DNA from: Lactobacillaceae bacterium
GTDB taxonomy: Bacteria > Bacillota > Bacilli > Lactobacillales > Lactobacillaceae
DNA length: 40,443 nt
Direction: 5' to 3'
Assembly: GCA_031289015.1 (NCBI GenBank)
Contig: JAITQG010000073.1
Coordinates: 1 to 40,443 of the forward strand
Shown here: one piece after another, positions 16,301 to 40,443 of the stretch
Layout of the letters: each line of letters opens with the position of its first letter
How positions within the stretch are numbered: position 1 is the stretch's first letter
Notes under the pieces: generated by a model
Told to the model about the DNA's origin: nothing
The model's input: only the letters and a program-made list of their open reading frames with translations
Database searches by the model: none
Made by a program: the position numbers and the translations under genes

Positions 16301-17587
16301 TCAGTTACCAAGTTGCAAATACTCACTAAAATCATCATCGGTTGGGTTGAACTGATTCCATCGTTCCTTCAAGAATTTATTATTAATTGCATACTGTGGT
16401 TTTACGTACTTAGCTTGTAAAAATGGCGCCACCTTTTCATCAAAGGCAATCCAGCCCCGCCAGCCCATATGAATCGTATCTTGCATGAAATACGCTTTAT
16501 TGCCGTCTTGTGAAAAATCAGCAATATTGTTAAAGCCTTGCGCATGTAATTGATATTTGATTTTTTCAACCGTTTTATTATACATCCCCAAATTCATATT
16601 AGTATATGCTTCCCACTTTTCATTAACCGGCGGAATCACAAACATAACCGATGTTTTGGTTTGAGCCATTTGCGTCAACGCTAATTGTAAATCCGCATAT
16701 TCTGGTGATTGCAGATAATTAAAATCAACTTGACTATTGCTTAAGGCCGGCAATTGCGGTCTAACGCGGGTATTATAAAAGCCATTCTCAATTCCAAAGT
16801 CATTATTACCCGTGGCCCGCGCACCTAGTTTGTCAGCAATCGCTTGTAATTTAGATACATTATAAGTCTTGGGTAATTGCTTGGTTTTGGGCAAAATGCG
16901 GGTGGTGTAATTATTACCGATTTGGAAATTGGCGAATAAATTATCTTCACTTTCCATCATTTTACCCAAAATATGCAAGGTCAGGCGATCAGATTTCGAC
17001 AAAAGTTGACCCTTGGCAATTTTTTTCATCATTTTGCCAAAGGTACTTGAAGGCACCATCTGCAAATACCGTTTAGCTGCATATTGATCAGCTTTAGTTT
17101 CCGTTTGGTTGCTTAAAAACCGAATAATTTGATCAGTACCTAAATAGTATGTAAAGGCGCCGACATCTTCACCTTGAGGCATAAACCATTGCGGCGAGAT
17201 AAAATACACGGCCTGTTTATTTTTCATCTGCTTGACCGTCTGTTGCATCCCATAAAATTGGGTCAACGACTGTGCACCACGCTCACCCAATAAAAACGGC
17301 CGATAATTACGGTGATACTTTTCAGCTAAGGTAAACGGGTGAAAGGCATCCATCCGATTCCATTCACTTGAACCAAAAAATGGCACAAAGCGATGTTTCT
17401 TATCCGATAGCGCTGCCCGTTTTAATTTTGCGTTTTTAAACACCGTCGCCGTCAATGCCGTGGCTGCCCGTTTTTCGACCGCTTCACTATGCGAATGCGT
17501 GTGCGTTGGGGCAATCAATAACAAACCAACAAGTAAGCCCCCAGCGACTAAGACGGGCCCAAAAATCAGCCAAAGTCGTTTAAACAT
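16301..17587 (-). CDS. dltD: D-alanyl-lipoteichoic acid biosynthesis protein DltD
   Basis: A 428-residue protein with one N-terminal membrane anchor (residues 7-27) and an extracellular SGNH-like domain. The catalytic Ser lies in [11 protein letters not shown] (about residues 70-80) and the Asp/His pair in DTIHMGWRG near the C-terminus. It takes part in the last step of D-alanine transfer to teichoic acid on the cell surface. Its start overlaps the dltC end by 8 bp. Confidence 0.93.
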
Positions 17588-29262: not shown

Positions 29263-30501
29263 TTAATCAACCTGGGCGACGGCATCCATGAAACTCCGCT
29301 CAAACAAGCGCTTATCAAGTTGTTGCTGGACGTGCACCAATTGATAGTCGCGCTGATAGAGCTTGGTTTGATAACAATCTAATAACAACGCTGTCAAATC
29401 TGCTAACGAATAGGTGAATTTCTCTTCAATCCCCATATAACTGGCGACTTCCACCTGTGGCAAATTAGGCACGATGGTATAAACGCCTAATAGCGCGGCC
29501 TCCAATGGTGTAATTGCCAGGGTTTCATAGCGCGAGGTACAGACAAAAATTGCTCGCTGCTTCATCAAAGCAAACAACGAGTACAGCTCATCTTTGGGCA
29601 GGCGCTCGCAGATTAAGAAATCCGCTTGGAATTCAGCGGGAATGCGCTTCAACAACTCGTGCCGGTTAACTTCATTTTCCAGTGCATCCCCCGCAATAAT
29701 TACTTTGACTGGTAATTGTTGTTGCCGCAATGCCACAGCAGCCTCAACCAATAAATCCAAGTTCTTAAAATAATCTAAGCGGGCCACCGTTGAAATCAAA
29801 AACAAGGTGGCTGGGTCAGCTTCTGCAAAATCTGCAATCTCAGCTCGTACTTTGGGCGTTTCAACGCTTGGCACGATAATCGGTGGCACCATTTTGAAGA
29901 TCCGACTAGCAGCTAACCCATATTCGATCAGACAATCTTTTTGCAAGCGTGAATGTTGGAGCACATACGCATTTTGTTGGGCCTTCAGCGAGACCAATCC
30001 CTCGGCTTGACTAGTCATCAAATGCTCAACTTTTGCTTTGGATCCATACGCCTTAACCGCCCCAGTCAATGAATAATGTTCGATAAAGTCCCGCGCAAAT
30101 GGGCCGTGATGCGTGATGAAGCTTGGGATTTGGGTCGGATGATACTTTAATAGCGTGTCAGTTTGATAATACACAATCGGGTCAAGCGTCAATTGTTGTT
30201 TTGACTTAATGGTTTGAACCGCAGATAAAATTGCCGTTTGAACCGCAGCATGCTCCATCCCAAAATTAAAATGCAAAATTAAAACCGGACAATTGGCACT
30301 GGGACGTGCCTCAATTGTCGGCGTTTGAATGGTTTCATCCCGTTTGTATAGAATGATCCCGCCAAGTGTTTGATACTTTTGCAGACAATCAATGATATTT
30401 AATGTGAATGATGACGCACCCACGACATTAGCGACATTATTTGAATCCGGAAAATACTTGTAATTCAAACAGATGATACACGCTCGATTTTTTGTTTCCA
30501 T
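29263..30501 (-). CDS. GT4-family glycosyltransferase
   Basis: About 412 residues, GT-B fold. The N-terminal domain has an acceptor-side FITHHGPFARDF. The C-terminal donor domain holds LISTVARLDYFKNLDLLVEA, VKVIIAGDA and the E-x7-E motif in RYETLAITPLEAALLG (residues about 350-365), characteristic of GT4 retaining transferases. It probably acts on a cell-surface glycan. The start at 30501 is chosen because GGAGGG lies 5-6 nt before it; the upstream extension is not protein-like. It is a single gene. Confidence 0.83.
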   Translation of the reverse strand: METKNRACIICLNYKYFPDSNNVANVVGASSFTLNIIDCLQKYQTLGGIILYKRDETIQTPTIEARPSANCPVLILHFNFGMEHAAVQTAILSAVQTIKSKQQLTLDPIVYYQTDTLLKYHPTQIPSFITHHGPFARDFIEHYSLTGAVKAYGSKAKVEHLMTSQAEGLVSLKAQQNAYVLQHSRLQKDCLIEYGLAASRIFKMVPPIIVPSVETPKVRAEIADFAEADPATLFLISTVARLDYFKNLDLLVEAAVALRQQQLPVKVIIAGDALENEVNRHELLKRIPAEFQADFLICERLPKDELYSLFALMKQRAIFVCTSRYETLAITPLEAALLGVYTIVPNLPQVEVASYMGIEEKFTYSLADLTALLLDCYQTKLYQRDYQLVHVQQQLDKRLFERSFMDAVAQVD

Positions 30502-30624
30502 ACGCACCCTCCATCGTGGCTGAGCATACGGTTTGGCTCCACGATTGCCATTATTATTACAACAAATGTAACATACTCTAATGGCATCCCACAATGCGTA
30601 ACTCGCTTTTTAAGCAGTGCGCGA

Positions 30625-30882
30625 TTAAATGATATTAATTAATAAAGTAAGTAATGTTATGAAAAGAGTTATAAATCCTAATGTGAACCCACACCAAACT
30701 TTGGTGTGGCGTTCTGATGTCTCAATATGCGTCTGTAAGTTCTCGACTTTAATGGTTAACCCTGTGACATCTTTACGAATATCCTTCATGTCATGTTGAA
30801 TTCCCACGATATCCTCGCGTAACCCCTTAAACATCTCAATCAAGAGCGTCATTTGATTTTGTGTTGTGATATTTTCCTCCAT
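30625..30882 (-). CDS. XhlA-like hemolysin/coiled-coil membrane protein
   Basis: 85 residues. An amphipathic coiled-coil stretch (residues 10-55, with repeated DI/DM spacing) precedes a short loop and a C-terminal membrane helix (residues about 63-84). This is the plan of XhlA-type hemolysin proteins that work with phage holins. GGGGAGG lies before the ATG. No holin or lysin lies beside it, so it may be a stray phage gene or a host membrane protein. Confidence 0.6.
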   Translation of the reverse strand: MEENITTQNQMTLLIEMFKGLREDIVGIQHDMKDIRKDVTGLTIKVENLQTHIETSERHTKVWCGFTLGFITLFITLLTLLINII

Positions 30883-30932
30883 TTGCGTACCTCCCCTAAA
30901 TACTCAATACCGTTAACTAACTACTTGAACGT

Positions 30933-30965
30933 AAAAAGGAACAGCATCGCGGCTGCTCCCTTTCT
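30933..30965 (-). terminator. Hairpin with T-tract upstream of the XhlA-like gene
   Basis: Minus strand: AAAGGGAGCAGC, a 6-nt loop, GCTGTTCCTTTTT. It follows a TATAAT (minus, about 30971-30976) and precedes the XhlA-like ribosome-binding site, so it may attenuate that gene. The remainder of 30883-31272 is AT-rich and shows no other gene. Confidence 0.6.
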
Positions 30966-31272
30966 AGATAGCTATATTATAACTTGAATATACAAGTTTG
31001 AACACATCCACTTTCATGATTTTGCATGTATTTTGTTGTCGCTTACTATCAAATAACATTTCGAATATAACCACAAACCGGAAGCTATTGATAGTAGTTT
31101 ATGCAATATCAGTCATTAACCAATGTTCTGGCATCAATTTCGAAATAATCAGCCAAATTTATAATTGCGTACCGTATACTTACCTTGTTCCCGAGCTATA
31201 TTCAACGTTGGGACATAATTATTGCATAACAAGATACCCATCTTGTTTCATATCTGTTGGAGGATATATATC

Positions 31273-32265
31273 GTGAAGATGCAAAACGTTTTGAAGACCG
31301 TCGCAATTGCTGCGGTGGCCGTTAGTTTGAGCCCTGTTTTGACAAGCGCAACTGTTTTTGCCGATGTTACACCAGGCGTCCAATGTATAGCAACCACAAC
31401 CACTTTACCTGGCAACCAAAAGTTCACGAAAGATGTGACCATCAAAACTGGTACTACCTTGATTATTGGAAATGACTTGCGCATTGAAAAGGGCATCAAG
31501 GTTACCGTTGAAGCTGGTGCGAGCCTTGTAGTTAAGGGGCAATTGTTTGCAGTAGATAATGACGTAATTAATAATTATGGTACGATCAATGCACGAACAA
31601 TCGAATTGGAAACACAATCAGTTATTAATAACTACAGCTTGGTCGAAGCTTGGTTTATTTCTGTACATGAACCAGGTATTGCTTTAGATGGTCAGTTAAA
31701 CAATTTGTTGGGTGGAATTACTCGCCCACGCAAGTCAAATCCTACAATTGATTTTGTGCGGCATTCGATTATCGTAAATGGGGACGCAGCTAATTTGCCA
31801 GACTTTAAGTTTGAAGAATTTGGCACTGGTAAGGTTACCCAAATGATGGATGATTCTGGTCGTATCAAGTTATTGAATAATCCAGAATTATTTGGTAAAA
31901 AAGGTTGGCTATATCAAATTGATGGTCTAGGAAGGTCTCAAAATGCAGAAGGAGTCAAAGAATGGATTGAAATTCCAGCTCGTAATGATAAGCGTTTTGC
32001 AGATACGGATGCCTTAGGTGCAATCAAGGTGAATAACAATACCATTACTGGCCTTAAGGGTGGTAATTACTCATATGAATTAACAGCCTATAAGGCAATT
32101 ACTGATAGCTTGCATGATAGTGACCCGCTGTTCTCACTTGACCTACCAACTAATGCTAAGACTTTTAAAGTTCCAACGGCCGGCTTTTATGAATTAACAG
32201 CCAGTTATACTGATGATTATGGCACAGTGTTATTCCCTGATGCATTTACTTTTACAGTTAAATAA
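31273..32265 (+). CDS. Secreted protein with N-terminal beta-solenoid-like region, unknown function
   Basis: About 330 residues. GTG start at 31273 with GGAGG 9 nt upstream; the in-frame ATG two codons later is too far from it. The signal peptide is VLKTVAIAAVAVSLSPVLTS, with cleavage probably after VFA. Residues about 40-130 repeat short hydrophobic/Asn patterns (TTLIIGNDLRIEKGIKVTV, VINNYGTINARTIEL) like a right-handed beta-helix. The C-terminal half ends in an Ig-like strand pattern. There is no LPxTG motif or transmembrane tail, so release or non-covalent attachment is likely. I do not recognise a family. Confidence 0.7.
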   Translation: MKMQNVLKTVAIAAVAVSLSPVLTSATVFADVTPGVQCIATTTTLPGNQKFTKDVTIKTGTTLIIGNDLRIEKGIKVTVEAGASLVVKGQLFAVDNDVINNYGTINARTIELETQSVINNYSLVEAWFISVHEPGIALDGQLNNLLGGITRPRKSNPTIDFVRHSIIVNGDAANLPDFKFEEFGTGKVTQMMDDSGRIKLLNNPELFGKKGWLYQIDGLGRSQNAEGVKEWIEIPARNDKRFADTDALGAIKVNNNTITGLKGGNYSYELTAYKAITDSLHDSDPLFSLDLPTNAKTFKVPTAGFYELTASYTDDYGTVLFPDAFTFTVK

Positions 32266-32319
32266 TTAGTAGGTCAGCCCATTGTCCAAAGCATGAACAA
32301 TAGAATTATATTTGCATTG

Positions 32320-32352
32320 AATCCTGTGATATTTTTATCACGGGATTTTTTT
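32320..32352 (+). terminator. Terminator after the secreted protein
   Basis: AATCCTGTGATA, TTTT, TATCACGGGATTTTTTT. Confidence 0.9.
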
Positions 32353-32404
32353 AAAAAAGCAACCATTGTAATAATGGTCGCAATATTTCTTAATTAATCA
32401 TTCA

Positions 32405-32437
32405 GCGTATATAGTACACGTTATCACCAACGACACC
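32405..32437 (-). repeat. R0: diverged copy of the 36-bp repeat
   Basis: The minus-strand reading starts GGTGTCGTTGGTGATAACG. It matches R7 (39691-39726) over about 30 positions with five substitutions and a 2-bp gap. It is in the same orientation as the seven full copies and sits at the left border of the accessory block, just before the restriction-modification genes. Confidence 0.65.
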
Positions 32438-32513
32438 GGAATTATTAATATTTTGAATCACGAATCGCTAATCAAACAAAACCAAGGATGAATTTTTTGT
32501 CTTATGCAAATAA

Positions 32514-33398
32514 TCATATCAAGGTTGAAAGATATTTATCAATCAATGATTTTTCTTTATCAGAAATTCCACCAAGTTCCACCCACGTTTTTAAAACTTC
32601 TCCCGTTTGGAAAATAATTGGAAAAATATATTTAACTACATCGGCATTACCAAACAATTTTAATCTTTTGTGTTCGGATAGGCTTTGAAACTTTGCTATG
32701 ACTTTATGTGAGTGATCTTCAAAATTCAAATCAGGAATACCACCAGTTCGTTGTCGCCATTCAATCATGATTTTAATTAAATTGTCATATAAATTAGATA
32801 ATTTATTTTGGGTTTGTTCAGGAAAAGCATCTTTTATTTCGCCAGCACCAACAACTGTCGCTAAATTAGGCAACTGCTTCTCAACTTCTTTTTTAACTTT
32901 TTTCTGGTTTTTTCTTTCATCAGGGGAAATATACCAAAAAATACCATACGTTGTTATATCTGTCTGCTGAGCATTTAAATTTTTAATTTTTTCAATAAAG
33001 GCGTCTTGATCAACACGATATTTATTACTATCGTGATTATCCTTTATCTTTAATTCAAGCATGACATGCGTTTTTTCATCAATTGCAAAATGTTCATCTA
33101 ACTCTTGTTTTTCCTTATTACCGTCATTTGTTTCAAATTGGGTAGAGAACTTTTCCAAATGAGTCACCCCATTTTCCGTAAGTAATTCGCGGATGACCGC
33201 TTCAATCCCATACCCTAACTTAATACCATTTGATGTCAACAAAGTACCCAATAAAATCATTTCATAAGATTCTGTTTTAAACAACGTCACTATCGTCTTG
33301 GGTTTTTCAATTAAATTGTCAATAATTTTAGGAATATAAACATCTTTAGTGTTGGGCACTTTCTTATTCAATATTTCTACATTTTTTTTAATATTCAT
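32514..33398 (-). CDS. Type II restriction endonuclease (candidate HinfI-like partner)
   Basis: About 294 residues. I recognise no close family by eye, but a PD-(D/E)xK-like site is visible: D107, then LELK with E115 and K117, followed by a Lys-rich stretch. It directly follows a HinfI-like methyltransferase gene and is read in the same direction, the usual order of a type II system. I choose the ATG at 33398 because GAGGG lies about 8 nt upstream inside the methyltransferase end; the TTG at 33413 has no such site. Cutting at GANTC is inferred from the methylase only. Confidence 0.7.
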   Translation of the reverse strand: MNIKKNVEILNKKVPNTKDVYIPKIIDNLIEKPKTIVTLFKTESYEMILLGTLLTSNGIKLGYGIEAVIRELLTENGVTHLEKFSTQFETNDGNKEKQELDEHFAIDEKTHVMLELKIKDNHDSNKYRVDQDAFIEKIKNLNAQQTDITTYGIFWYISPDERKNQKKVKKEVEKQLPNLATVVGAGEIKDAFPEQTQNKLSNLYDNLIKIMIEWRQRTGGIPDLNFEDHSHKVIAKFQSLSEHKRLKLFGNADVVKYIFPIIFQTGEVLKTWVELGGISDKEKSLIDKYLSTLI

Positions 33399-33402
33399 TA
33401 TG

Positions 33403-34521
33403 CTATCCCTCAAACCCTAACACATTTATTCGATAAGCATCTCTTATTTGTGAAATTGGAACCTTTTTATTGTCACGAATAACAAACCAAACATCCCAAC
33501 CATTTGCATTAACGGAGCTTCCGCTTAAAATACCCCCTAATTTGGATATTCCATAGTCATCTCCGTCAAAGTACAATTCTTTAACATTTGAAATTGTCGC
33601 TGTAATGTCAGATGTTCTAAAATATAATTTTTCTTGTTGATTAATATAATTACTATCAACCAAATCATGAAATTTAACTTTAGGTGGCTTTATGTCAAAT
33701 TTTGCTTGTGTAAATTCATCCAACTGTGGAATTTCTTTATTAACTCGTATCATGGCGTACTTATGATATTTTTCATCACGTTCAATTCCATAAAAATTTC
33801 GGCCTACCCTTTTTGCAATTGCTCCTGTGGTGCCAGAGCCCATGAACGGGTCTACAATTAAATCATTAATTTTAGTTGATGAAATAATTACGTTATACAA
33901 TAATTTATCAGGCTTTTGTGTTGGATGTAATTTTTCCCCACCATCATCTTTAACCCGTTCATTACCAGATGAAACTGGAATATCCCAAACACTAGTCATT
34001 TGTTTTCCACCATTGAGTTCTTTCATAGTTTTGTAATTAAACTGATATTTAGTGTTTTTAGTTGGTGTAGCCCACAATAACGTCTCTTGACGATTGGTAA
34101 ATTTAGTACCTAAAAAATTTGGCGTGGGATTCGTTTTTGACCAAACGATGTCATTAATAATCCAAAATCCCAATTCTTGAAGGACATCTCCGACAACATA
34201 AATATTCTGAAAGGATCCAATAACCCATAGGGATGATTTATCTTTTTTTAATACACGCTGAGCTTCTTTCAACCAAGTTCGCGTGAATTCCTTATAACTA
34301 GTTAAACTTTCAAACTCATCCCAATCATTACCTTCTACACCTTTAAAGTTACTACCATTAGTCCGCTTTAAAGTTCCCTCAACTTGCATGTTATATGGCG
34401 GATCAGCAAAAAGCATATCAACGGATGAATCTGGTAGTTTTTTAAGTGACTCTATGGTGTCGCCTAAGGTTATTGTGTTGAGTAGTTCTTGTGGAAATTT
34501 ATTGTTAATTTGACGCTTCAT
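33403..34521 (-). CDS. HinfI-like adenine DNA methyltransferase (probable GANTC)
   Basis: 372 residues. Motif IV DPPY is at residues 40-43 and motif I DPFMGSG at 224-230, the beta-class order. Long stretches agree with my recollection of M.HinfI: RTNG...GV...W, WVIGSFQNIY, NDIVWSKTNPTPNF and HPTQKPDKLLY. The extra C-terminal region (from about residue 270) corresponds to that of HinfI/CcrM enzymes and contains NGWDVWFVIRDNKKV. It should methylate adenine in GANTC. AAAGAGGTGG precedes the ATG; the stop of a phase-variable leader frame abuts the ATG (TAAATG). It overlaps the endonuclease gene. Confidence 0.9.
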   Translation of the reverse strand: MKRQINNKFPQELLNTITLGDTIESLKKLPDSSVDMLFADPPYNMQVEGTLKRTNGSNFKGVEGNDWDEFESLTSYKEFTRTWLKEAQRVLKKDKSSLWVIGSFQNIYVVGDVLQELGFWIINDIVWSKTNPTPNFLGTKFTNRQETLLWATPTKNTKYQFNYKTMKELNGGKQMTSVWDIPVSSGNERVKDDGGEKLHPTQKPDKLLYNVIISSTKINDLIVDPFMGSGTTGAIAKRVGRNFYGIERDEKYHKYAMIRVNKEIPQLDEFTQAKFDIKPPKVKFHDLVDSNYINQQEKLYFRTSDITATISNVKELYFDGDDYGISKLGGILSGSSVNANGWDVWFVIRDNKKVPISQIRDAYRINVLGFEG

Positions 34522-34547
34522 TTATGCCACCTCTTTCAAGGCAACAT

Positions 34548-34594
34548 AAAAGGCGCTCTTATTCACTTCATCAAGTGAAAAGAACGCCTTTTTT
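34548..34594. terminator. Hairpin before the methyltransferase gene (possible attenuator)
   Basis: An inverted repeat of about 19 bp with two or three mismatches: minus strand AAAGGCGTTCTTTTCACTT, TGATG, AAGTGAATAAGAGCGCCTTT. It is followed by TTTTATG on the minus strand and by TTTTTT on the plus strand. It lies inside the leader ORF region, so ribosomes reading the leader would prevent it from folding. Confidence 0.65.
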
Positions 34595-34616
34595 GATTCG
34601 ACAAATAAACCAGCGT

Positions 34617-34688
34617 TTAAATAATTACGTTGGTTGGTTGGTTGGTTGGTTGGTTGGTTGGTTGGTTGGTTGGTTGGTTGGTTAACAT
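34617..34688 (-). CDS. Leader ORF containing the tetranucleotide repeat (currently out of frame)
   Basis: The ATG at 34688 has an excellent site (GAGGAG, 6-nt gap) and lies 20 nt after the hepT stop. The frame runs M-L-T-N-Q-P-T-N-Q-P through the repeat, then V-I-I-stop: 23 codons. If the repeat gained one 4-bp unit or lost two, the frame after it would be open for 35 more codons (opening RNYLNAGLFVESKKAF, ending ALKEVA) and stop exactly at the methyltransferase ATG. A third register stops at once. The ORF therefore behaves as a phase-variable leader. No known domain is recognised in it. Confidence 0.6.
   Translation of the reverse strand: MLTNQPTNQPTNQPTNQPTNVII
34629..34683. repeat. Tetranucleotide simple repeat (GTTG)13.75
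   Basis: 55 bases of uninterrupted GTTG units (AACC on the coding minus strand), just downstream of a start codon with a strong ribosome-binding site. Long perfect tetranucleotide tracts are typical of slipped-strand phase variation, as in Haemophilus and Neisseria restriction-modification genes. Confidence 0.95.
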
Positions 34689-34707
34689 ACCACTCTCCTC
34701 TTTCTTT

Positions 34708-35154
34708 TTAAATGCTTGGCTCATCAATTTCTGGATCATATTGTTGAACATCTTCAAACAATCCATCTGTTTCAAAAACATCAGGTACAGGCAATGTTTT
34801 ACTCAAATTCACGGTGCTTTCAATATAGTCAATTAACTGTGGGAAATCCTGATTAACTGTAGTAAACACAAGGTCCCAGTTTGTTCGACCGTAATTGTGT
34901 GATATCAAATTTCGCATGTTTTTCATTTGCTGCCACGGCATGGCTGGAAATTCATGTTTAAAGCCTGCCGACAAATGACCAACATTTTCGCCTACCTCTT
35001 CAATACGGCGCGCCACTGCATCTTGGGCGTCTATGTTTTTTAACAAGTCCAGGCCACTATTAATGTTGACTCTTTCAAACCCATTAATGGCCCTTTTTGC
35101 AAAAATAAGCACATTGTCCAACGCTTCTATTTCTCGTTTGGTTAAATCATACAA
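34708..35154 (-). CDS. hepT: HepT-like HEPN ribonuclease toxin
   Basis: About 148 residues, HEPN fold. The motif RNLISHNY (R81, H86, Y88 from the TTG start) is exactly the Rx4HxY of HepT toxins; the Tyr is the residue the partner AMPylates. It cleaves RNA unless modified. I prefer the TTG at 35154, since GAGG lies 9 nt upstream; the ATG at 35169 (five codons longer) has no site. It overlaps mntA, so the two are coupled. The phase-variable leader of the restriction-modification genes begins 20 nt after its stop, so one transcript probably covers all five frames. Confidence 0.9.
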   Translation of the reverse strand: MYDLTKREIEALDNVLIFAKRAINGFERVNINSGLDLLKNIDAQDAVARRIEEVGENVGHLSAGFKHEFPAMPWQQMKNMRNLISHNYGRTNWDLVFTTVNQDFPQLIDYIESTVNLSKTLPVPDVFETDGLFEDVQQYDPEIDEPSI

Positions 35155-35650
35155 AGCGCAGCACCTCATTTTTGATACTTGTCAAAAACTTTCGGGTTTC
35201 AAGCGTTGTAATAAATTTTTTCAAATCATATAGATCAATAAGCTGCACATCTTTATTTAGCGTCTTTTGAGCATACTCCATAATCCGACTCTTCTCTTGC
35301 AAAGACAGCTGCGTCGATCCTTGATTTTTAGCAATAATCAGATCAACATCGCTTTCTTCAGTCGCCAAGCCAGTTGCATAACTACCAAATAATAATACAT
35401 CTGATAAAGCAAAGTTGCTTGCAATATCATGCGCAAAATCATTCAAAGTAGCTAAAGATAGTAACTCACTGACTTGCATCACAGCTTGTTGATAGGCTTG
35501 GATGTTTTTTAAGGTAGGATTGCCAATGTTGTTTTCTATCCTATTAACCTGAACACGAGAAATGCCAGCAATTTTAGCAATGGCTTCTTGCGAAAATTTA
35601 CTTTTTACGCGTTTTTGAATAGTTTCATTCAATAAATCTTTAACTAACAT
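35147..35650 (-). CDS. mntA: MntA-like nucleotidyltransferase antitoxin with HTH domain
   Basis: About 167 residues. The N-terminal XRE-type helix-turn-helix (residues 19-45: SQEAIAKIAGISRVQVNRIE) is fused to a minimal nucleotidyltransferase. Its motif GSYATGLATEESDVD (residues 89-103) is the GSx10DxD of MntA. It silences HepT by AMPylating its tyrosine (type VII toxin-antitoxin). The DNA-binding domain is not part of the minimal MntA and suggests autoregulation at the palindrome upstream. The ATG at 35650 is 9 nt from GGAGG; a TTG two codons upstream is less likely. Confidence 0.9.
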   Translation of the reverse strand: MLVKDLLNETIQKRVKSKFSQEAIAKIAGISRVQVNRIENNIGNPTLKNIQAYQQAVMQVSELLSLATLNDFAHDIASNFALSDVLLFGSYATGLATEESDVDLIIAKNQGSTQLSLQEKSRIMEYAQKTLNKDVQLIDLYDLKKFITTLETRKFLTSIKNEVLRFV

Positions 35651-35671
35651 AATCAAGCACCTCCCAAAACT

Positions 35672-35690
35672 ATTGTAACATACATGTTAC
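35672..35690 (-). promoter_or_regulatory. mntA-hepT -10 and palindromic operator
   Basis: A perfect palindrome GTAACAT-AC-ATGTTAC (35675-35690) overlaps a -10-like TACAAT (minus, 35672-35677). It is the likely binding site of the helix-turn-helix of MntA. The -35 is weak. Confidence 0.7.
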
Positions 35691-35728
35691 TGGAAGTTGT
35701 GTGATTTTTTAGCGTTCGCTGCCTCTTT

Positions 35729-35764
35729 GGTGTAGACATACCACCCGTTATCGTCAGCTACACC
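35729..35764 (-). repeat. R1: 36-bp repeat
   Basis: A full-length copy with GGTGTAG/CTACACC ends. On the minus strand it reads G-V-A-D-D-N-G-W-Y-V-Y-T and continues in frame for KEAANAKKSHNFQ before a stop. Directly on its right is ATG preceded by AAGGAAAGC, so the repeat interrupts something just after a start codon. Confidence 0.9.
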
Positions 35765-35877
35765 ATCTGCTTTCCTTCAAACTAAAAGCACCATGCGGTT
35801 GCACAGTGCTTCGTTGTTAAATCAATTCTATTTTTTCAAAATCAGAAAGCAGATACGAATACAGCCGTATTCCCACC

Positions 35878-36513
35878 TTATTTTTCAGCAAATACAATCG
35901 CGCTTACTACTTCTTCACTAACAGGAACCAAGTCCCAAGCATCCAATTCTACATGAATTTATTTGGGCTGATTTAGGTTATATTTTTCTCGGGTATGTGT
36001 ATGCCCACATAGTAACCATTCCCCTGTATTCACGGGAGCGCGCGAATCTTCGTAAGGGTAATGGGCAAGCAACAGTTTTATATCGCGTATCTGTATTTCA
36101 TCAGATTCCTTGACGGTGTTAAAAACGGGTAAATATTCTTCCTCAGCATTAGAATCATGATTCCCCTTGCTGAGGTATCGATTCTTGCATGCTATTTTAA
36201 AAACCCATGCTCGCATACTTTCTTTTGTGATTTTCTTCGAGACATCACCCAACACGTATAATTCATCGTCAGCACCTACAGACTGATTGATATTTTCGAC
36301 GATTTTTGCATTATGTGCATCCACATCGCCAATTTTTTTGAAGCTGATATGCTCCTCTTGTGCGTAATCAGTAAGATTTTGTTGCGCCTGTGCATAGCCG
36401 AATACTTCTACATCCCGCTCGAATTTTTCCATGAGAATTTCATCTTTAATAAACCCACGAAACGCAGCGACCATTGGATGACCAAAATGCAAATCTGCAG
36501 TAAAGTATTTCAA
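35878..36513 (-). pseudogene. Calcineurin-like phosphoesterase with an internal stop
   Basis: A metallophosphatase of the small phage-associated group. Metal-binding motifs are FTADLHFGH (residues 4-12), GDVS, GNHD, a lone His in LAHYPY and GHTHT. The TTG at 36513 is chosen as start (AAAGGAAG 8 nt upstream; protein starts KYFTADLHFG). An in-frame TAA at 35959-35961 ends the frame after NLNQPK. The frame then goes on with IHVELDAWDLVPVSEEVV and a natural stop at 35878. LDAWD-x-PVS is the normal C-terminus of this family, so about 26 residues are cut off by a nonsense change. All catalytic motifs precede it, so activity may remain. Confidence 0.75.
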
Positions 36514-36620
36514 ATCGTCACTTCCTTTCGAATAATTACCTTGGAATAGCAAATATGCTGATATTCAATTATCACCTTCGTTATAGCTGATTGTCGATTT
36601 AGCGCAAGAATTGTATATCA

Positions 36621-36648
36621 AAAATAAAAAGCCTATGGACATAGACTT
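36621..36648 (-). terminator. Terminator upstream of the phosphoesterase
   Basis: Minus strand: AAGTCTATG, TC, CATAGGCTTTTTATTTTT. It isolates the phosphoesterase from genes to the right. The surrounding space 36514-36734 contains a 61-codon frame running through this hairpin; I see no support that it is a gene. Confidence 0.7.
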
Positions 36649-36734
36649 CCAATACGGCTTGTATACAGAGGTGACAAATGCGCCATCTCCCAATTCATTT
36701 GCTGAATTATAACGCTGAAAAGTCACTTGATAAA

Positions 36735-36770
36735 GGTGTAGACATAACACGCATTATCACTGGCTACACG
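36735..36770 (-). repeat. R2: 36-bp repeat
   Basis: A full-length copy. The last base of the right end is changed (CTACACG). The minus frame reads V-A-S-D-N-A-C-Y-V-Y-T and then stops after three codons. Confidence 0.9.
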
Positions 36771-36789
36771 TCTTTTGCCATGCCAGCTC

Positions 36790-37050
36790 CTAATCATCAT
36801 ATTTTACAATCGACTTGATCTCGTCTTGAGTAATTTCAATTGCACTAGTTGTGATACCTGGTTTTTGAATATCTACACTGTATAACTCGTCATTAACAAA
36901 ATCATCAGTTTCTTCGTTATAAGTTTCATGATCAATTGAATTATTAAAACCTATTAATTTACCAACGTACGTCTTACCGTCATCAGCTAAAATAGCTACC
37001 ATCTGGCCTTTTAATTCTTGGTAAAGTTGATAACATTCTTTTTCATTCAT
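36790..37050 (-). CDS. Small acidic protein, possibly LSM-like (phage/immunity type)
   Basis: 86 residues. The start at 37050 has AAGGAG 7-8 nt upstream; further upstream the frame runs into repeat R3. The pattern VAILADDGKTYVGKLIGF, an acidic middle (NEETDDF), then SAIEITQDEIKSIV resembles the protein at 39761-39967 (VRVTLIDEVHVPPFVGYM, then ITWSHIKDIEVV). Both look like a small Sm-like barrel. In phages such proteins often follow the minor head/toxin gene. An immunity role is possible but inferred. It forms the only gene between R2 and R3. Confidence 0.55.
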   Translation of the reverse strand: MNEKECYQLYQELKGQMVAILADDGKTYVGKLIGFNNSIDHETYNEETDDFVNDELYSVDIQKPGITTSAIEITQDEIKSIVKYDD

Positions 37051-37091
37051 CTCAATCTCCTTCATTGATCGGGTAAACATGGACTCCTTTT

Positions 37092-37127
37092 TGTGCAGAC
37101 ACAACAAACATTATCACTAGCTACACC
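37092..37127 (-). repeat. R3: 36-bp repeat
   Basis: The most changed of the seven full copies at its left end (TGTGCAG for GGTGTAG). The right end directly abuts the stop codon of the YoeB-like toxin gene. Confidence 0.88.
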
Positions 37128-37445
37128 TTAATTGTCATTATAGTGTCCAAAAGCTGACCAAATCCAGACTGTCTTTATTGTCTTATCAACTGTAAATACA
37201 ACCCGCTGTTTACCATTAATTCGCATTGATCGTGCTTTTTTCATACCCTTGTAATTCTGCAGTTGTTCATTATTTCGAACATGGGCAAACGGATTACGAC
37301 GCAACAGTTCTTTGATTTCATTATAATCATCCAGCAAATCAAGTTTATGCAGCTCAGGTAAATCTTTTTTGGCCACTGTTCGATGTTCTTTGATAATATA
37401 GACAATTTCCTGATTTAAAATATCAGTCTTGTTTTCAAATATCAT
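37128..37445 (-). CDS. RelE/YoeB-superfamily toxin
   Basis: 105 residues. The C-terminal core RSMRINGKQRVVFTVDKTIKTVW, split by strands and ending WSAFGHYND, has the Arg-rich strand and terminal HY of YoeB/Txe mRNA interferases that cleave mRNA at the ribosome. The N-terminal half is longer than classical YoeB. It follows the antitoxin gene by 3 bp, with GAGG 8 nt before the ATG. Its stop lies immediately next to R3, so either the repeat marks the cassette boundary or the last residues were altered by the junction. Confidence 0.75.
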   Translation of the reverse strand: MIFENKTDILNQEIVYIIKEHRTVAKKDLPELHKLDLLDDYNEIKELLRRNPFAHVRNNEQLQNYKGMKKARSMRINGKQRVVFTVDKTIKTVWIWSAFGHYNDN

Positions 37446-37448
37446 GGA

Positions 37449-37694
37449 TTACACCTCAACAAAGTCATCATCGGTTGCATCTTTCATACGATTTATGACC
37501 TCATCAAGCACTCCGTTTTCTTGTAGGTACGCAGTTTCAATCAATGAACGATATTCTGATTTTGTCATTATTACGATACTTTCATCTTCATCGTCAGTTC
37601 CAATTTGCATCGGCTCCTGGTTTTCTTTCACAGCCCTTAAAACACTAAAAAAATTTTTACGTGCTGACGTTGGCGTTAATACATTCATATCCAT
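37449..37694 (-). CDS. Phd/YefM-family antitoxin
   Basis: About 81 residues. The N-terminal TPTSARKNFFSVLRAVKENQEPMQI is the Phd/YefM DNA-binding and dimer domain. IVIMTKSEYRSLIETAYL and the acidic tail MKDATDDDF form the toxin-binding part. The start at 37694 follows AAGGTGG by a short gap; the ATG two codons later is also possible. It represses its own operon through the palindrome upstream and neutralises the YoeB-like toxin. Confidence 0.85.
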   Translation of the reverse strand: MDMNVLTPTSARKNFFSVLRAVKENQEPMQIGTDDEDESIVIMTKSEYRSLIETAYLQENGVLDEVINRMKDATDDDFVEV

Positions 37695-37711
37695 AACCAC
37701 CTTTTAAATAT

Positions 37712-37750
37712 TTATATGTACATTATAACGTACATATAACGTGTTGTCTA
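37712..37750 (-). promoter_or_regulatory. Toxin-antitoxin promoter with palindromic operator
   Basis: Minus strand: -35 TAGACA (37745-37750), 17 bp, -10 TATAAT (37722-37727). The perfect palindrome TTATATGTAC-N8-GTACATATAA (37712-37739) covers the -10, a typical Phd/YefM operator arrangement. Confidence 0.85.
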
Positions 37751-37760
37751 TAATCTCAAG

Positions 37761-37823
37761 TTAGCCTTTGTCGTTAACTAAAAAAATTATTTCAGTTGCT
37801 GCTACTTGCATGTTTAATACCTT
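37761..37823 (-). pseudogene. C-terminal gene fragment fused to repeat R4
   Basis: The reading frame of R4 (V-A-S-D-N-A-W-Y-V-Y-S) continues for 20 residues, KVLNMQVAATEIIFLVNDKG, and then stops. It has no start codon of its own except an internal ATG. It looks like the tail of a gene cut at the repeat; I do not recognise it. Confidence 0.4.
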
Positions 37824-37859
37824 GCTGTAGACATACCACGCATTATCACTAGCTACACC
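37824..37859 (-). repeat. R4: 36-bp repeat
   Basis: A full-length copy with left end GCTGTAG. To its right lie a hairpin terminator and a ribosome-binding site/start block at 37886-37911, which match 25 of 26 positions of the right flank of R1. Confidence 0.9.
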
Positions 37860-37978
37860 TAAACGCTTACCACTTGCTTTCCTTCATCTGCTTTCCTCCA
37901 AACTAAAAGCAGTCACCATATGGATAACTGCTTAGTATTATGAATTGTTTACATTGGAATACGAATTTTCTCAGTCAC

Positions 37979-38185
37979 TTAATATTCAATGTCCGGGTAC
38001 CGATCTAAATTATCTAATATATCTTGATAATAATCTGGGATCAATCTTGGGATATACTTCCACCGATCAACAGTTAGGTTAATCCACATAGTGACAAATC
38101 CACGTGGGGCATCAGGTTTTGGTAAGTAAAAGCCTCGACTATCTTCAAAATATGATCGTTCTTTTTCTGTTAACGGCTGCTCCAT
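37979..38185 (-). CDS. Small protein of unknown function (probable phage origin)
   Basis: 68 residues, rich in Tyr, Trp and Pro (PRGFVTMWINLTVDRWKYI). GGGAGG lies 5 nt before the ATG. It starts 3 bp after the stop of a truncated frame and is followed by a terminator hairpin (about 37899-37925) and then R4. No family is recognised. Position and style suggest a phage structural-region gene. Confidence 0.5.
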   Translation of the reverse strand: MEQPLTEKERSYFEDSRGFYLPKPDAPRGFVTMWINLTVDRWKYIPRLIPDYYQDILDNLDRYPDIEY

Positions 38186-38187
38186 AA

Positions 38188-38244
38188 CTACCTCCCACGT
38201 ATCCGTTTTAATACTCTAGCTGCTACTTGTCCTAATTCATCATT
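38188..38244 (-). pseudogene. C-terminal gene fragment cut at repeat R5
   Basis: 18 codons, NDELGQVAARVLKRIRGR, then TAG. The frame has no start and begins at the left end of R5. The last bases hold the ribosome-binding site of the next gene (GGGAGG), as in a tightly packed phage operon. It is the tail of an unidentified gene whose front is missing. Confidence 0.5.
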
Positions 38245-38245
38245 A

Positions 38246-38281
38246 GGTGTAGCCATAACAAACATTATCACCAGCTACACC
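38246..38281 (-). repeat. R5: 36-bp repeat
   Basis: Identical in all 36 positions to R6. It is in frame with the tape measure fragment on its right (V-A-G-D-N-V-C-Y-G-Y-T, then stop). Confidence 0.95.
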
Positions 38282-38634
38282 CCCAACTTCAGCGGCATTA
38301 AACTTGGTTGACTTTCCCCAATCTAACGCCATATCGCTTAATGACTTTAATTCCTTTTTTGGTGCGCCAGTCGCTTGTCCGACTAAGTTCATAGTCTGTT
38401 CGAAATCTCCAGCTGATTTCACCGAACTAACCGCAAATGCACCAACAGCTGCACCAGCAACAGCCATACCTTTGACTAGTACTCCTGCCGATTGTTGGCC
38501 GGCTTGACCAAATGATTTGGCTAACCCAGTGGCCGCTGCTTCTCCTTCGTTCGCAGTTTCTTTCATTGCTTTTTTGCGTCTGAGTTATCTACTTTAATGA
38601 CAGCCCATAGCGCAAATAATTCTGCTGCACTCAT
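38282..38634 (-). pseudogene. Phage tape measure protein, N-terminal fragment with frameshift
   Basis: It starts SAAELFALWAVIKVDNSDA after AAAGGAGG. At an A6 run (38570-38575) the frame goes to a stop. One extra A would restore KKAMKETANEGEAAATG, which continues as the alanine-rich coil ending STKFNAAEVGG. This is the standard N-terminus of Siphoviridae tape measure proteins. Full-length proteins are usually much longer; here only about 118 codons remain, then R5. So the gene is broken twice: by a one-base deletion and by truncation at the repeat. Confidence 0.8.
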
Positions 38635-38712
38635 AAGTGTTCCTCCTTTCCTTTCGAGGTTACTCAGTGATATAATATATTTACTAAAAATAAGACGAGA
38701 GGTATTCGACAA

Positions 38713-38826
38713 ATGGCAGCATTTCTAGTTTATACATTTATTTTTCTGTTTATCGTTATGCCCTTAGTACTTGGTCCGATTATGTTTATCGGCCGACTGA
38801 TATACTTAACCACTAGAAAAAAGTAA
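38713..38826 (+). CDS. 37-residue hydrophobic peptide, candidate type I toxin
   Basis: The only plus-strand gene in the repeat region. It has a TATAAT (38671-38676), AGAGG 10 nt before the ATG, one membrane helix over most of its length with a PLVLGP turn, and a basic TTRKK end. A hairpin terminator follows. Size and plan resemble Fst/Ldr-type membrane toxins controlled by antisense RNA. It is inserted between the tail chaperone and tape measure genes, which are normally adjacent. An antisense RNA is not demonstrated; the function is inferred. Confidence 0.45.
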   Translation: MAAFLVYTFIFLFIVMPLVLGPIMFIGRLIYLTTRKK

Positions 38827-38858
38827 AAAGTGATCACATTCATTGTGGTCGCTTTTTT
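38825..38858 (+). terminator. Terminator after the small hydrophobic peptide
   Basis: AAAAAGTGATCACA, TTCA, TTGTGGTCGCTTTTTT, a stem with several G-U pairs. The stop codon of the convergent chaperone frame (38840) lies inside it. Confidence 0.7.
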
Positions 38859-39402
38859 GGTTTCACCAATTTACTTGCGAAGGCCAATTGTTCAGCCACC
38901 ACTTCGTCATCATTGCCTCGAATAGTCTTAGTTCTAATGTGAACAGCATTATCTTTCTTAAAGTCACCAAAGCTTTGTTCAACATCTTTGGCCAACCATA
39001 CTTCCCACAATTGTTCTTCGTTCTCTTGCTCAAAAAGATAAAAAATAAAATCCGCTAAATTACGCATCGAAAATGTCGAGAGTAGTTTTAGCGGATTTCC
39101 ATATCTTTTGAATAACATGTCTTTAATTTTATACTCGCCATCACTTACTTCAGTAACGAGGCGATAGACTTGAAAAAATCAGCCAACTCCGGCTTCTTGA
39201 AGAATGCAACAATAAGCGCGGTGTAATCGACCAATGACATGTCTTGAATTTCTTGAACTGGCTTCCCTGTCACACTTGCCAATAGATCATTGATTTCAAT
39301 TTTCACGACTGCCAAATTTGAAATAACTCCTTGAAGCAATCCAGCAATCAGTTTCATCCCACGCTCTTGAACTGCTTGTTCATCATTCGGGTCAAACTTA
39401 TC
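38840..39402 (-). pseudogene. Phage tail assembly chaperone pair (5'-truncated) with -1 frameshift site
   Basis: Zero frame: from R6 (39403) into DKFDPNDEQAVQERGMKLI and on to FFKSIASLLK, stop 39145. The -1 frame enters at the slippery heptamer T-TTT-TTC (39172-39178) and reads QVYRLVTEVSDGEYKIKDML and on to KPKKRPQ, stop 38840. A short chaperone plus a -1 frameshift product just before the tape measure gene is the gpG/gpGT arrangement of siphophages. There is no start codon before the first ATG at 39357, and the frame runs back into R6, so the N-terminus is missing. Confidence 0.8.
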
Positions 39403-39438
39403 GGTGTAGCCATAACAAACATTATCACCAGCTACACC
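39403..39438 (-). repeat. R6: 36-bp repeat
   Basis: Identical to R5. It continues in frame into the truncated tail chaperone on its left. Confidence 0.95.
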
Positions 39439-39447
39439 ACATAGTGC

Positions 39448-39603
39448 TCAAACTAATGCTTTTGCTCTTAAAGCCTCAAGTTCAGCTTGTGTAATCGGTT
39501 TTATATTTTTAAATCGCGGATTGTTTGGGTCAATTTCAGGGTGTCGTTCTAAAAATGTTTTATCTGAAATTTCCCAAGGCATACGATCATCAATCATTAC
39601 CAT
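39448..39603 (-). CDS. Small phage protein of unknown function
   Basis: 51 residues (VMIDDRMPWEISDKTFLERH at the start, ELEALRAKALV at the end). GGGGTGATGAG precedes the ATG. Its start overlaps the end of the truncated frame upstream. It is charged, soluble and probably helical. Its place before the tail chaperone suggests a minor tail-region protein; no family is recognised. Confidence 0.5.
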   Translation of the reverse strand: MVMIDDRMPWEISDKTFLERHPEIDPNNPRFKNIKPITQAELEALRAKALV

Positions 39604-39690
39604 CTCATCACCCCATAATTCCAACCAAGATTTTCAGCAAGTATCATCGCCAAATCATCTACCTGTTGCGTATTTTCAGCTTCGTGTATT
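39597..39690 (-). pseudogene. C-terminal phage gene fragment cut at R7
   Basis: The frame IHEAENTQQVDDLAMILAEN ends LGWNYGVMRW and a stop. It has no start and begins directly at the left end of R7. The acidic helical tail fits a phage tail-region protein; its identity is unknown. Confidence 0.5.
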
Positions 39691-39726
39691 GGCGTAGACA
39701 TAATACACATTATCACCAGCTACACC
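39691..39726 (-). repeat. R7: 36-bp repeat
   Basis: A full-length copy, four differences from R5/R6. Coding frames are cut on both sides: a start-proximal fragment on the right, a C-terminal fragment on the left. Confidence 0.92.
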
Positions 39727-39764
39727 TCATATTGCACATTAAAATAATCGTCTTTAGCCATCAT
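39720..39764 (-). pseudogene. N-terminal fragment of a YjcQ-like phage gene
   Basis: The ATG at 39764 overlaps the stop of the preceding gene (ATGA). The 14 codons MMAKDDYFNVQYEV match the start of YjcQ-type phage proteins (MAKDDYF...), then the frame meets TAG inside R7. The remaining part of the gene is absent. Confidence 0.5.
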
Positions 39765-39967
39765 TCCACCACTTCAATATCTTTAATATGGCTCCATGTA
39801 ATAAAACGACCATCAACGACGATCGCGTCTTCAATCCCATCTGGCGTGTCGCCAGCATTAGAATATTCAGACATATAACCCACAAACGGCGGCACATGTA
39901 CTTCGTCAATCAGGGTCACACGCACGGTCTTTCGCCACATATTAAAAACTTCCATTTCAGTCTTCAT
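39761..39967 (-). CDS. Small LSM-like phage protein, candidate immunity protein
   Basis: 68 residues. The plan is a strand-rich VRVTLIDEVHVPPFVGYMSE, an acidic loop with DTPDGIEDAIVVDG, then ITWSHIKDIEVVE. AGAGG lies about 9 nt before the ATG. It begins 14 bp after the stop of the toxin-like minor head gene, where immunity genes of MuF-associated toxins usually sit. It resembles the protein at 36790-37050. The function is inferred from position. Confidence 0.55.
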   Translation of the reverse strand: MKTEMEVFNMWRKTVRVTLIDEVHVPPFVGYMSEYSNAGDTPDGIEDAIVVDGRFITWSHIKDIEVVE

Positions 39968-39981
39968 AAATAGATTAACCT

Positions 39982-40443
39982 CTATTCTTTACAATATGGA
40001 ACTATATGGGTTTTGCCTGCTGAATAGTGAATTTTAATTCCGGTTGCAGCAACTGTTTTTCCGTTTTTCAAAACAACAGTGCCTTCGATATCAGGAATGG
40101 GGTTAACTATTTCTATATTAGACCAATTTTTCCCGCTGTCTGTCCTGTCTAATGTACCAGTACCGGAATATTTATCAATTAAAGCTTGGGCGTTGATGTC
40201 ATCTGGAAAAAAACTACTTTTCAAGCCTTTTTTAGTAGCAACCGTTGTGCTCAGATGATGCGCTTGTTCCGGTGGATAAATCTTCCCCGTCCAAGTTCCG
40301 TTATTCAACTTTCGGATCGTGTGCGCCCGGCCTTTAATCAAACTCATCTCAGTTGGATTGTTTCGTGCGGAGCGCCATTGTTCATACGTCGGCGCCTTGC
40401 TTCCCATATCTTTCTTAAATCTATTATACGTCGGAATTATGCT
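39982..40443 (-). CDS. Phage minor head protein C-terminus with polymorphic-toxin-like domain (partial)
   Basis: The frame is open to the right edge, so the start is outside the window. The visible part begins YNRFKKDMGSKAPTYEQWRS, the usual linker at the end of MuF-type minor head proteins. About 90 further residues end GIKIHYSAGKTHIVPYCKE. The IHYS...HIVPY ending matches what I know of Ntox50-type toxin domains (predicted RNases) attached to phage head proteins. The domain assignment is from short motifs. A small protein gene follows directly, consistent with toxin and immunity. Confidence 0.6.
   Translation of the reverse strand, partial: SIIPTYNRFKKDMGSKAPTYEQWRSARNNPTEMSLIKGRAHTIRKLNNGTWTGKIYPPEQAHHLSTTVATKKGLKSSFFPDDINAQALIDKYSGTGTLDRTDSGKNWSNIEIVNPIPDIEGTVVLKNGKTVAATGIKIHYSAGKTHIVPYCKE

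Follow-up and report, generated by a model that had tools for sequence, protein, structure and literature searches.

A repeat array on two contigs

The window analysed here is a stretch of 40,443 nucleotides from a Lactobacillaceae bacterium (assembly GCA_031289015.1, contig JAITQG010000073.1) and makes up the complete contig C24 of a 2.08-Mb genome (G000) in 73 contigs. It carries an array of 36-bp direct repeats separated by gene-sized segments, and further copies of the repeat lie beside a cas1-cas2 gene pair on a second contig, C55. We numbered the repeats R1 – R11 and the segments S1 – S10, counting from the cas1 end. An earlier note on the window had described seven full copies in one orientation, and we recovered all seven at those positions, intact and in register on the minus strand, with spacings of 1006, 357, 732, 422, 1157 and 288 bp. 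The minus-strand consensus matched them at 31 to 34 of 36 positions, far beyond 50 shuffled windows (best match 24, mean of the maxima 21.6). The GGTGTAG/CTACACC arms ascribed to every copy were present in most. Searching the genome with an IUPAC (International Union of Pure and Applied Chemistry) pattern at up to three mismatches produced ten matches, the seven in the window and three identical copies on C55; the same search gave no match on the opposite strand and none for a reversed control pattern. The repeats are within the 20 – 50 bp range and uniformly oriented, as an array of clustered regularly interspaced short palindromic repeats (CRISPR) demands.

Contig C55 (7092 bp) contains, in order, R3 (138 – 173), R2 (632 – 667), R1 (1181 – 1216, nearest the leader), a 149-bp leader, cas1 (1366 – 2244) and cas2 (2245 – 2520). 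R1 – R3 are identical to one another. On the minus strand of the window follow R4 (39691 – 39726), with 1 difference from R1 – R3; R5 (39403 – 39438) and R6 (38246 – 38281), which share one sequence with 5 differences from R1; R7 (37824 – 37859; 7 differences), R8 (37092 – 37127; 8), R9 (36735 – 36770; 7), R10 (35729 – 35764; 8) and the decayed terminal repeat R11 (32402 – 32437; 12). The differences from R1, zero in R2 and R3, rise with distance from cas1 (Spearman 0.96). Similarity between neighbouring repeats also exceeded expectation (Mantel p 0.0015 with all 11 and about 0.0001 with R1 – R10), and the test gave p 0.013 when one of the identical R1 – R3 was taken together with R4 – R10. 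The gradient fits the trace expected if the cas1-side repeat was copied at every insertion, and the way in which the repeats are ordered points to acquisition in steps, with growth presumably at the leader end.

The diverged eighth copy reported earlier held up in part. It starts at 32402 and not at 32405, and identity alone does not support it, its 24 of 36 matches to the consensus being equalled by the top score among 50 shuffles. With a weight matrix derived from the other ten copies it nevertheless scored 18.8, while the runner-up site in the window reached 4.2. It lies at the far end of the array, on the same strand as the other repeats, its cas1-side half is best kept, and the eight 36-mers of the window (seven intact, one decayed) align without gaps.

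We infer that C24 and C55 are joined through S3. R4 is one base off R1 – R3 and shares a G at position 34 with them alone, and at both contig ends the sequence is phage head-gene-like and runs in the same orientation. The window part of S3 (39727 – 40443, minus strand) holds the 3’ part of a minor-head-like gene, a gene of 68 amino acids and a third gene that R4 cuts off after 12 codons; the other part would be C55 1 – 137, whose match to a minor head family begins at family position 307 of 564. The right end of the window resembles the C-terminal part of a 405-amino-acid gene of Streptococcus phage LF1 (30.5%), and the 68-amino-acid gene weakly resembles the next gene in LF1 (E 0.001). The two contig-end pieces matched different phage records when the best 15 of 26 matches of one were compared with all 13 of the other. 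That both come from the same gene is likely but unproven, because the phage records differ among the matches listed.

A solo cas1-cas2 pair and its leader

The Cas1 protein matched TIGR03639, the type II family, at 236.3 bits (cut-off 120), and Cas2 matched TIGR01573 at 25.0 bits (cut-off 24.5); PADLOC profiles agreed. Residues E147, H203 and E218 of Cas1, which we take to be catalytic, are invariant in a four-row alignment. By family profile and conserved residues this is a type II Cas1, and the Cas1-Cas2 pair with its leader adjoins the array. The earlier note had advised looking for a linked recombinase beyond the right edge of the window and had loosely compared the repeats to integron attC sites. 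If the join holds, an integrase pair does lie by the array on C55, but it is Cas1-Cas2 and not a tyrosine recombinase; the comparison with attC found no support. The four tyrosine-recombinase matches of the genome are on C2, C20 (two) and C49, with none on C24 or C55.

The only Cas9 match in the genome is on C27, beside another cas1 and apart from C55; other effector families were not searched for. The array repeat is unlike the CRISPR repeat of C27 (by reading). The type II CRISPR-Cas9 locus on C27 (about 29848 – 36210) has just two repeats, 66 bp apart.

The leader of G000 holds a promoter-like TTGGAA-17-TATAAT site pointing into the array, where shuffled sequences average 0.6 sites. A search of 150 relatives uncovered a second solo Cas1, 68% identical to that of G000, in another species represented by the metagenome-assembled genome (MAG) Lactobacillaceae bacterium Po218_bin95 (G009). 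One clear repeat is located 149 bp from cas1 in G009, as in G000; of its 36 positions, 24 to 28 match R1 – R10 (fewest for R8) and 19 match R11. What may be a second repeat, in decay, occurs 1247 bp on (contig L051, 13922), with its first 12 bases exact and 23 of 36 matches against 22 for the control. Identity between the two leaders is 50% at register 0, compared with 21 – 38% at 12 other registers. RNA folding of three repeats gave z values of -2.07 (R1), -4.50 (R5/R6) and -1.60 (the G009 repeat). The two cas1 genes differ at 89 first, 31 second and 177 third codon positions, which indicates purifying selection on cas1; synonymous change (dS) is saturated, hence no ratio is given.

The segments might have gathered without any common mechanism, through homologous exchange at some old repeat, Cas1-Cas2 being a chance neighbour, and that only two such genomes are known would agree with this. 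The fixed distance to cas1, the conserved leader and the purifying selection on cas1 speak against it, and we consider such an accumulation very unlikely.

In a tree of Cas1 proteins (39 taken, 38 used after a length filter removed L047), the two solo Cas1s formed one clade with support 100/100 and a branch of 1.15. Among 11 other Cas1 loci, seven had at least nine repeats nearly all 65 – 74 bp apart, in three the repeats formed short runs with a spacing of 66 or 75 bp, and in one only masked bases were seen. At E 0.001 a Cas1 search matched 59 of the 150 relatives, G000 included, with identity above 37% in G000 and G009 only. Matches in 12 of 397 family genomes (E 1e-45) and 2 of 395 order genomes (E 1e-52), two overlapping sets, added no further solo Cas1. 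A scan of a genome collection with two peptide patterns found one solo Cas1 relative, which was G009; the scan was low in sensitivity because only these two patterns were used. Neither a solo Cas1 relative nor the repeat patterns of the two species were found in IMG/VR. The solo Cas1 matched 33 plasmid records, all below 60% identity, and four phage records at 25.6 – 30.8%. The one plasmid match inspected, from Limosilactobacillus fermentum, was rejected as a further case, its Cas1 being flanked by type III-A csm genes on one side and by a cas2 on the other.

Segments between the repeats

The repeats delimit segments of about the sizes described before (0.25 – 3.3 kb): the nine fully visible ones measure 252 – 3291 bp and S3 at least 854 bp, unlike the short, evenly sized spacers of a CRISPR array. 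S1 (C55 668 – 1180, 513 bp) is a single open frame throughout, without a start or stop of its own. It corresponds to the interior of a Mga-like regulator gene, of which a copy on C59 (open frame of about 500 amino acids) shows 71% amino acid identity over residues 2 – 170 of 170; the local DNA alignment of the two spans bases 9 – 502 of 513. S5 (38282 – 39402, 1121 bp, minus strand) is a phage tail region with a start-less tail-region gene, a second small one and a tape-measure fragment cut at R6; its phage-family matches are phrog_1021 from position 72 of 142 (plus 15 residues up to the repeat), phrog_1294, and tape measure to position 296 of 1688. Five gene-cut segment ends were recognized by homology and one by reading, the end of S3 that lies 12 codons into a gene. 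At least three of the ten segments (S1, S3 and S5) are gene fragments severed at repeats, and apparently whole genes occur in S7, S9 and S10. The proposal of cassette-like recombination is thereby kept in part: the repeats delimit the segments and a stepwise order is suggested, but the fragments are not cassettes.

We considered whether a 36-bp repeat resembling a miniature inverted-repeat transposable element (MITE) had been inserted repeatedly into an old prophage remnant, as several segments contain phage genes. Insert ends inspected by eye showed no shared motif and no target duplication, and we rejected MITE insertion on the absence of the latter. The flanks, moreover, are discontinuous across R1 and R2, as the S1 copy on C59 makes clear, and across R3 and R6 (by reading). 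S1 largely contradicts the MITE reading already, and it can be given hardly any probability. The repeat as a coding motif was also discarded; the 36-mer has one open frame, yet its flanks differ (by reading).

The main genes point away from cas1 in nine of the ten segments (by reading; one-sided p 0.011), the exception being S2 on C55, judged from a short truncated start. Acquired genes mostly in one orientation, a promoter-like leader in G000 and an integrase at one end recall an integron cassette array, and a chromosomal integron or similar platform could be run by an unlinked tyrosine recombinase. All four tyrosine-recombinase matches, however, are off C24 and C55, the pair at the array is Cas1-Cas2 and not IntI, the 36-bp repeats are not attC sites, and gene fragments rather than cassettes are among the inserts. 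We rejected an integron on the absence of IntI at C24 or C55 and of attC, and regard this explanation as exceedingly improbable.

The remaining segments lie on the minus strand of the window. S4 (39439 – 39690, 252 bp) holds the end of one small open reading frame (ORF) and a 51-amino-acid ORF, and a family search with it gave nothing above the cut-off. S6 (37860 – 38245, 386 bp) has a 68-amino-acid ORF with no family match. S7 (37128 – 37823, 696 bp) encodes a Phd/YefM antitoxin (37449 – 37700) and a YoeB-like toxin (37128 – 37445; weak, under the Pfam cut-off). S8 (36771 – 37091, 321 bp) has a 94-amino-acid ORF with a weak phrog_1865 match, as in S3, and ends in a gene start (by reading). 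S9 (35765 – 36734, 970 bp) carries a calcineurin-like phosphoesterase gene (35959 – 36552), and S10 (32438 – 35728, 3291 bp) a nucleotidyltransferase/HepT-like pair and a type II methyltransferase/restriction enzyme pair.

Within S5, the start of the tape-measure fragment (38282 – 38640) is out of frame with the remainder (by reading), like decaying captured DNA. A 27-bp stretch near the far end of S9 (35764 – 35790) recurs at 96% near that of S6 (37885 – 37911), which suggests that their donors were related. A GGTT tetranucleotide tract at about 34629 – 34685 in S10, upstream of the methyltransferase gene, may render that gene phase-variable; similar tracts occur in six other genomes of the genus and on contig C4 of G000.

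Donor searches were made with parts of the array. At near identity, window positions 31000 – 40443 were unmatched in phage and plasmid collections. The same region as DNA matched 15 of the 150 relatives, G000 included, the outside matches being 38 – 218 bp long and many of them the GGTT tract. S7 and S10 gave no match to plasmids in a distant mode. S5 matched seven phage records over 15 – 22% of the query at 70 – 72.5% identity, and its tape-measure fragment had one relative in IMG/VR, over 41 residues.

Proposed gene-sized inserts and the likeness to dif

The explanation that we favour, and regard as probable from the sequence, is a CRISPR-type array with gene-sized inserts, built by a type II Cas1-Cas2 pair that stands alone, with no Cas9 beside it. 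Cas1-Cas2 would take double-stranded DNA fragments of about 0.25 – 3.3 kb, already long on entry and drawn from phages and other DNA with no regard to gene borders. Both ends of a fragment would be joined to the two borders of the first repeat, beside the leader, and that repeat would be duplicated at each insertion; the array would therefore grow from the cas1 end while old repeats decay. The leader would transcribe the inserts, and useful modules (toxin-antitoxin, restriction-modification) would therefore persist. The locus is like a CRISPR with type II adaptation in its Cas1 and Cas2 families, its leader, the single orientation of its 36-bp repeats, an order of repeats such as growth at the leader end would produce, and a decayed terminal repeat. 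It is unlike one in its inserts of 252 – 3291 bp instead of about 30, and no Cas9 is found at the locus. In type II systems, according to PMC6895254, Cas1-Cas2 integrates DNA at the repeat closest to the leader and copies that repeat, and PMC5382924 describes leader-end motifs.

Several points weigh against this explanation. Known spacers are about 30 bp long, and the C27 locus of the genome itself has its two repeats at the ordinary distance given above. The evidence comes from one strain of the species, in which insertion is deduced and not observed, only two solo loci were found, and G009 is a MAG with one certain repeat. Cas2 is barely over its cut-off and the C24-C55 join is itself inferred. 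Scanning the G009 leader on the array-ward strand gave no promoter-like site, though TATAAT stands at the same place; with such a site in G000 but not in G009, transcription of the inserts is therefore only presumed. The insert ends showed no shared motif by eye, and no whole donor was found at the nucleotide level, only short partial matches of 66 – 72.5% (S5 and elsewhere), S1 and S2 not having been searched as DNA. Lastly, the repeat resembles dif, which favours a role for Xer recombination.

The likely chromosomal dif site (C29:42583 – 42610) is identical in G009 and matched within three mismatches in 25 of 28 genomes of the genus. All 11 repeats match this 28-bp site at 16 – 20 positions in one register. 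The tested consensus scored 20, which none of 200,000 shuffles reached; the best shuffle scored 19, equal to R1 – R3. The genome has two XerC/XerD-like genes. The repeats could thus be dif-like sites at which XerC/XerD integrate circular DNA bearing such a site, with Cas1-Cas2 a neighbour or passenger. The so-called pdif modules, in which dif-like sites flank toxin-antitoxin and similar genes, are proposed to integrate in this way, as circles. Their sites alternate in orientation around complete modules, whereas here 11 of 11 sites have one orientation, gene fragments are present and the array is linked to Cas1-Cas2. Xer partner sites must share a 6-bp centre, but this centre is among the most variable stretches of the repeat. 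Pieces whose two ends both fall within genes are no natural circles, and integration by Xer explains neither the decay gradient nor why cas1 lies at a fixed 149 bp in both species. Because the repeat resembles the chromosomal dif, we keep a Xer role in consideration as the chief rival, though an unlikely one.

Both machines could have acted, with Cas1-Cas2 capturing DNA and the dif-like repeats letting XerC/XerD remove or reshuffle inserts. The findings cited for each apply here as well, and the identical centres within R1 – R3, within R5, R6 and R8, and within R7 and R9 would permit exchange inside each group. No rearranged strain was seen with one genome per species, however, and in the G009 repeat the XerD-side arm is poorly conserved (by reading); we regard this combination as more doubtful still. 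In a broader form, which we put forward as a speculation with a modest chance of being right, the CRISPR adaptation pair has left immunity and is now an integron-like gene-capture platform: kilobase-long DNA would be stored in arrival order behind a promoter, the repeat would descend from the chromosomal dif, and XerC/XerD would also excise or shuffle the stored genes.

The proposed acquisition by the solo Cas1-Cas2 has a parallel in casposons, in which a Cas1-family enzyme would likewise insert kilobase-long DNA, and Cas1 relatives include casposases, the movers of such DNA. Casposons have terminal inverted repeats and PolB around cas1; here Cas1 is of type II and located outside the inserted units. 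Cas1-Cas2 is usually viewed as a maker of records of about 30 bp. If the proposed acquisition is true, the whole-gene array would add to integrons and transposons a further way of capturing genes. The array would then inform how Cas1 can alter its length rule, a question that could be tested directly with a pair of small proteins and a single leader-repeat target, and might be of use as a recorder of long DNA. Among the matches listed in the open-licence literature, no title or abstract mentioned gene-sized spacers or dif-like CRISPR repeats.

Two further features were observed on contig L051 of G009. A coiA-like competence gene (16540 – 17457) follows the solo cas1-cas2 on the opposite strand and may hint at the source of captured DNA. 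The contig also has a perfect 44-bp direct repeat, at 75 – 118 and 14113 – 14156, the two copies lying 14 kb apart.

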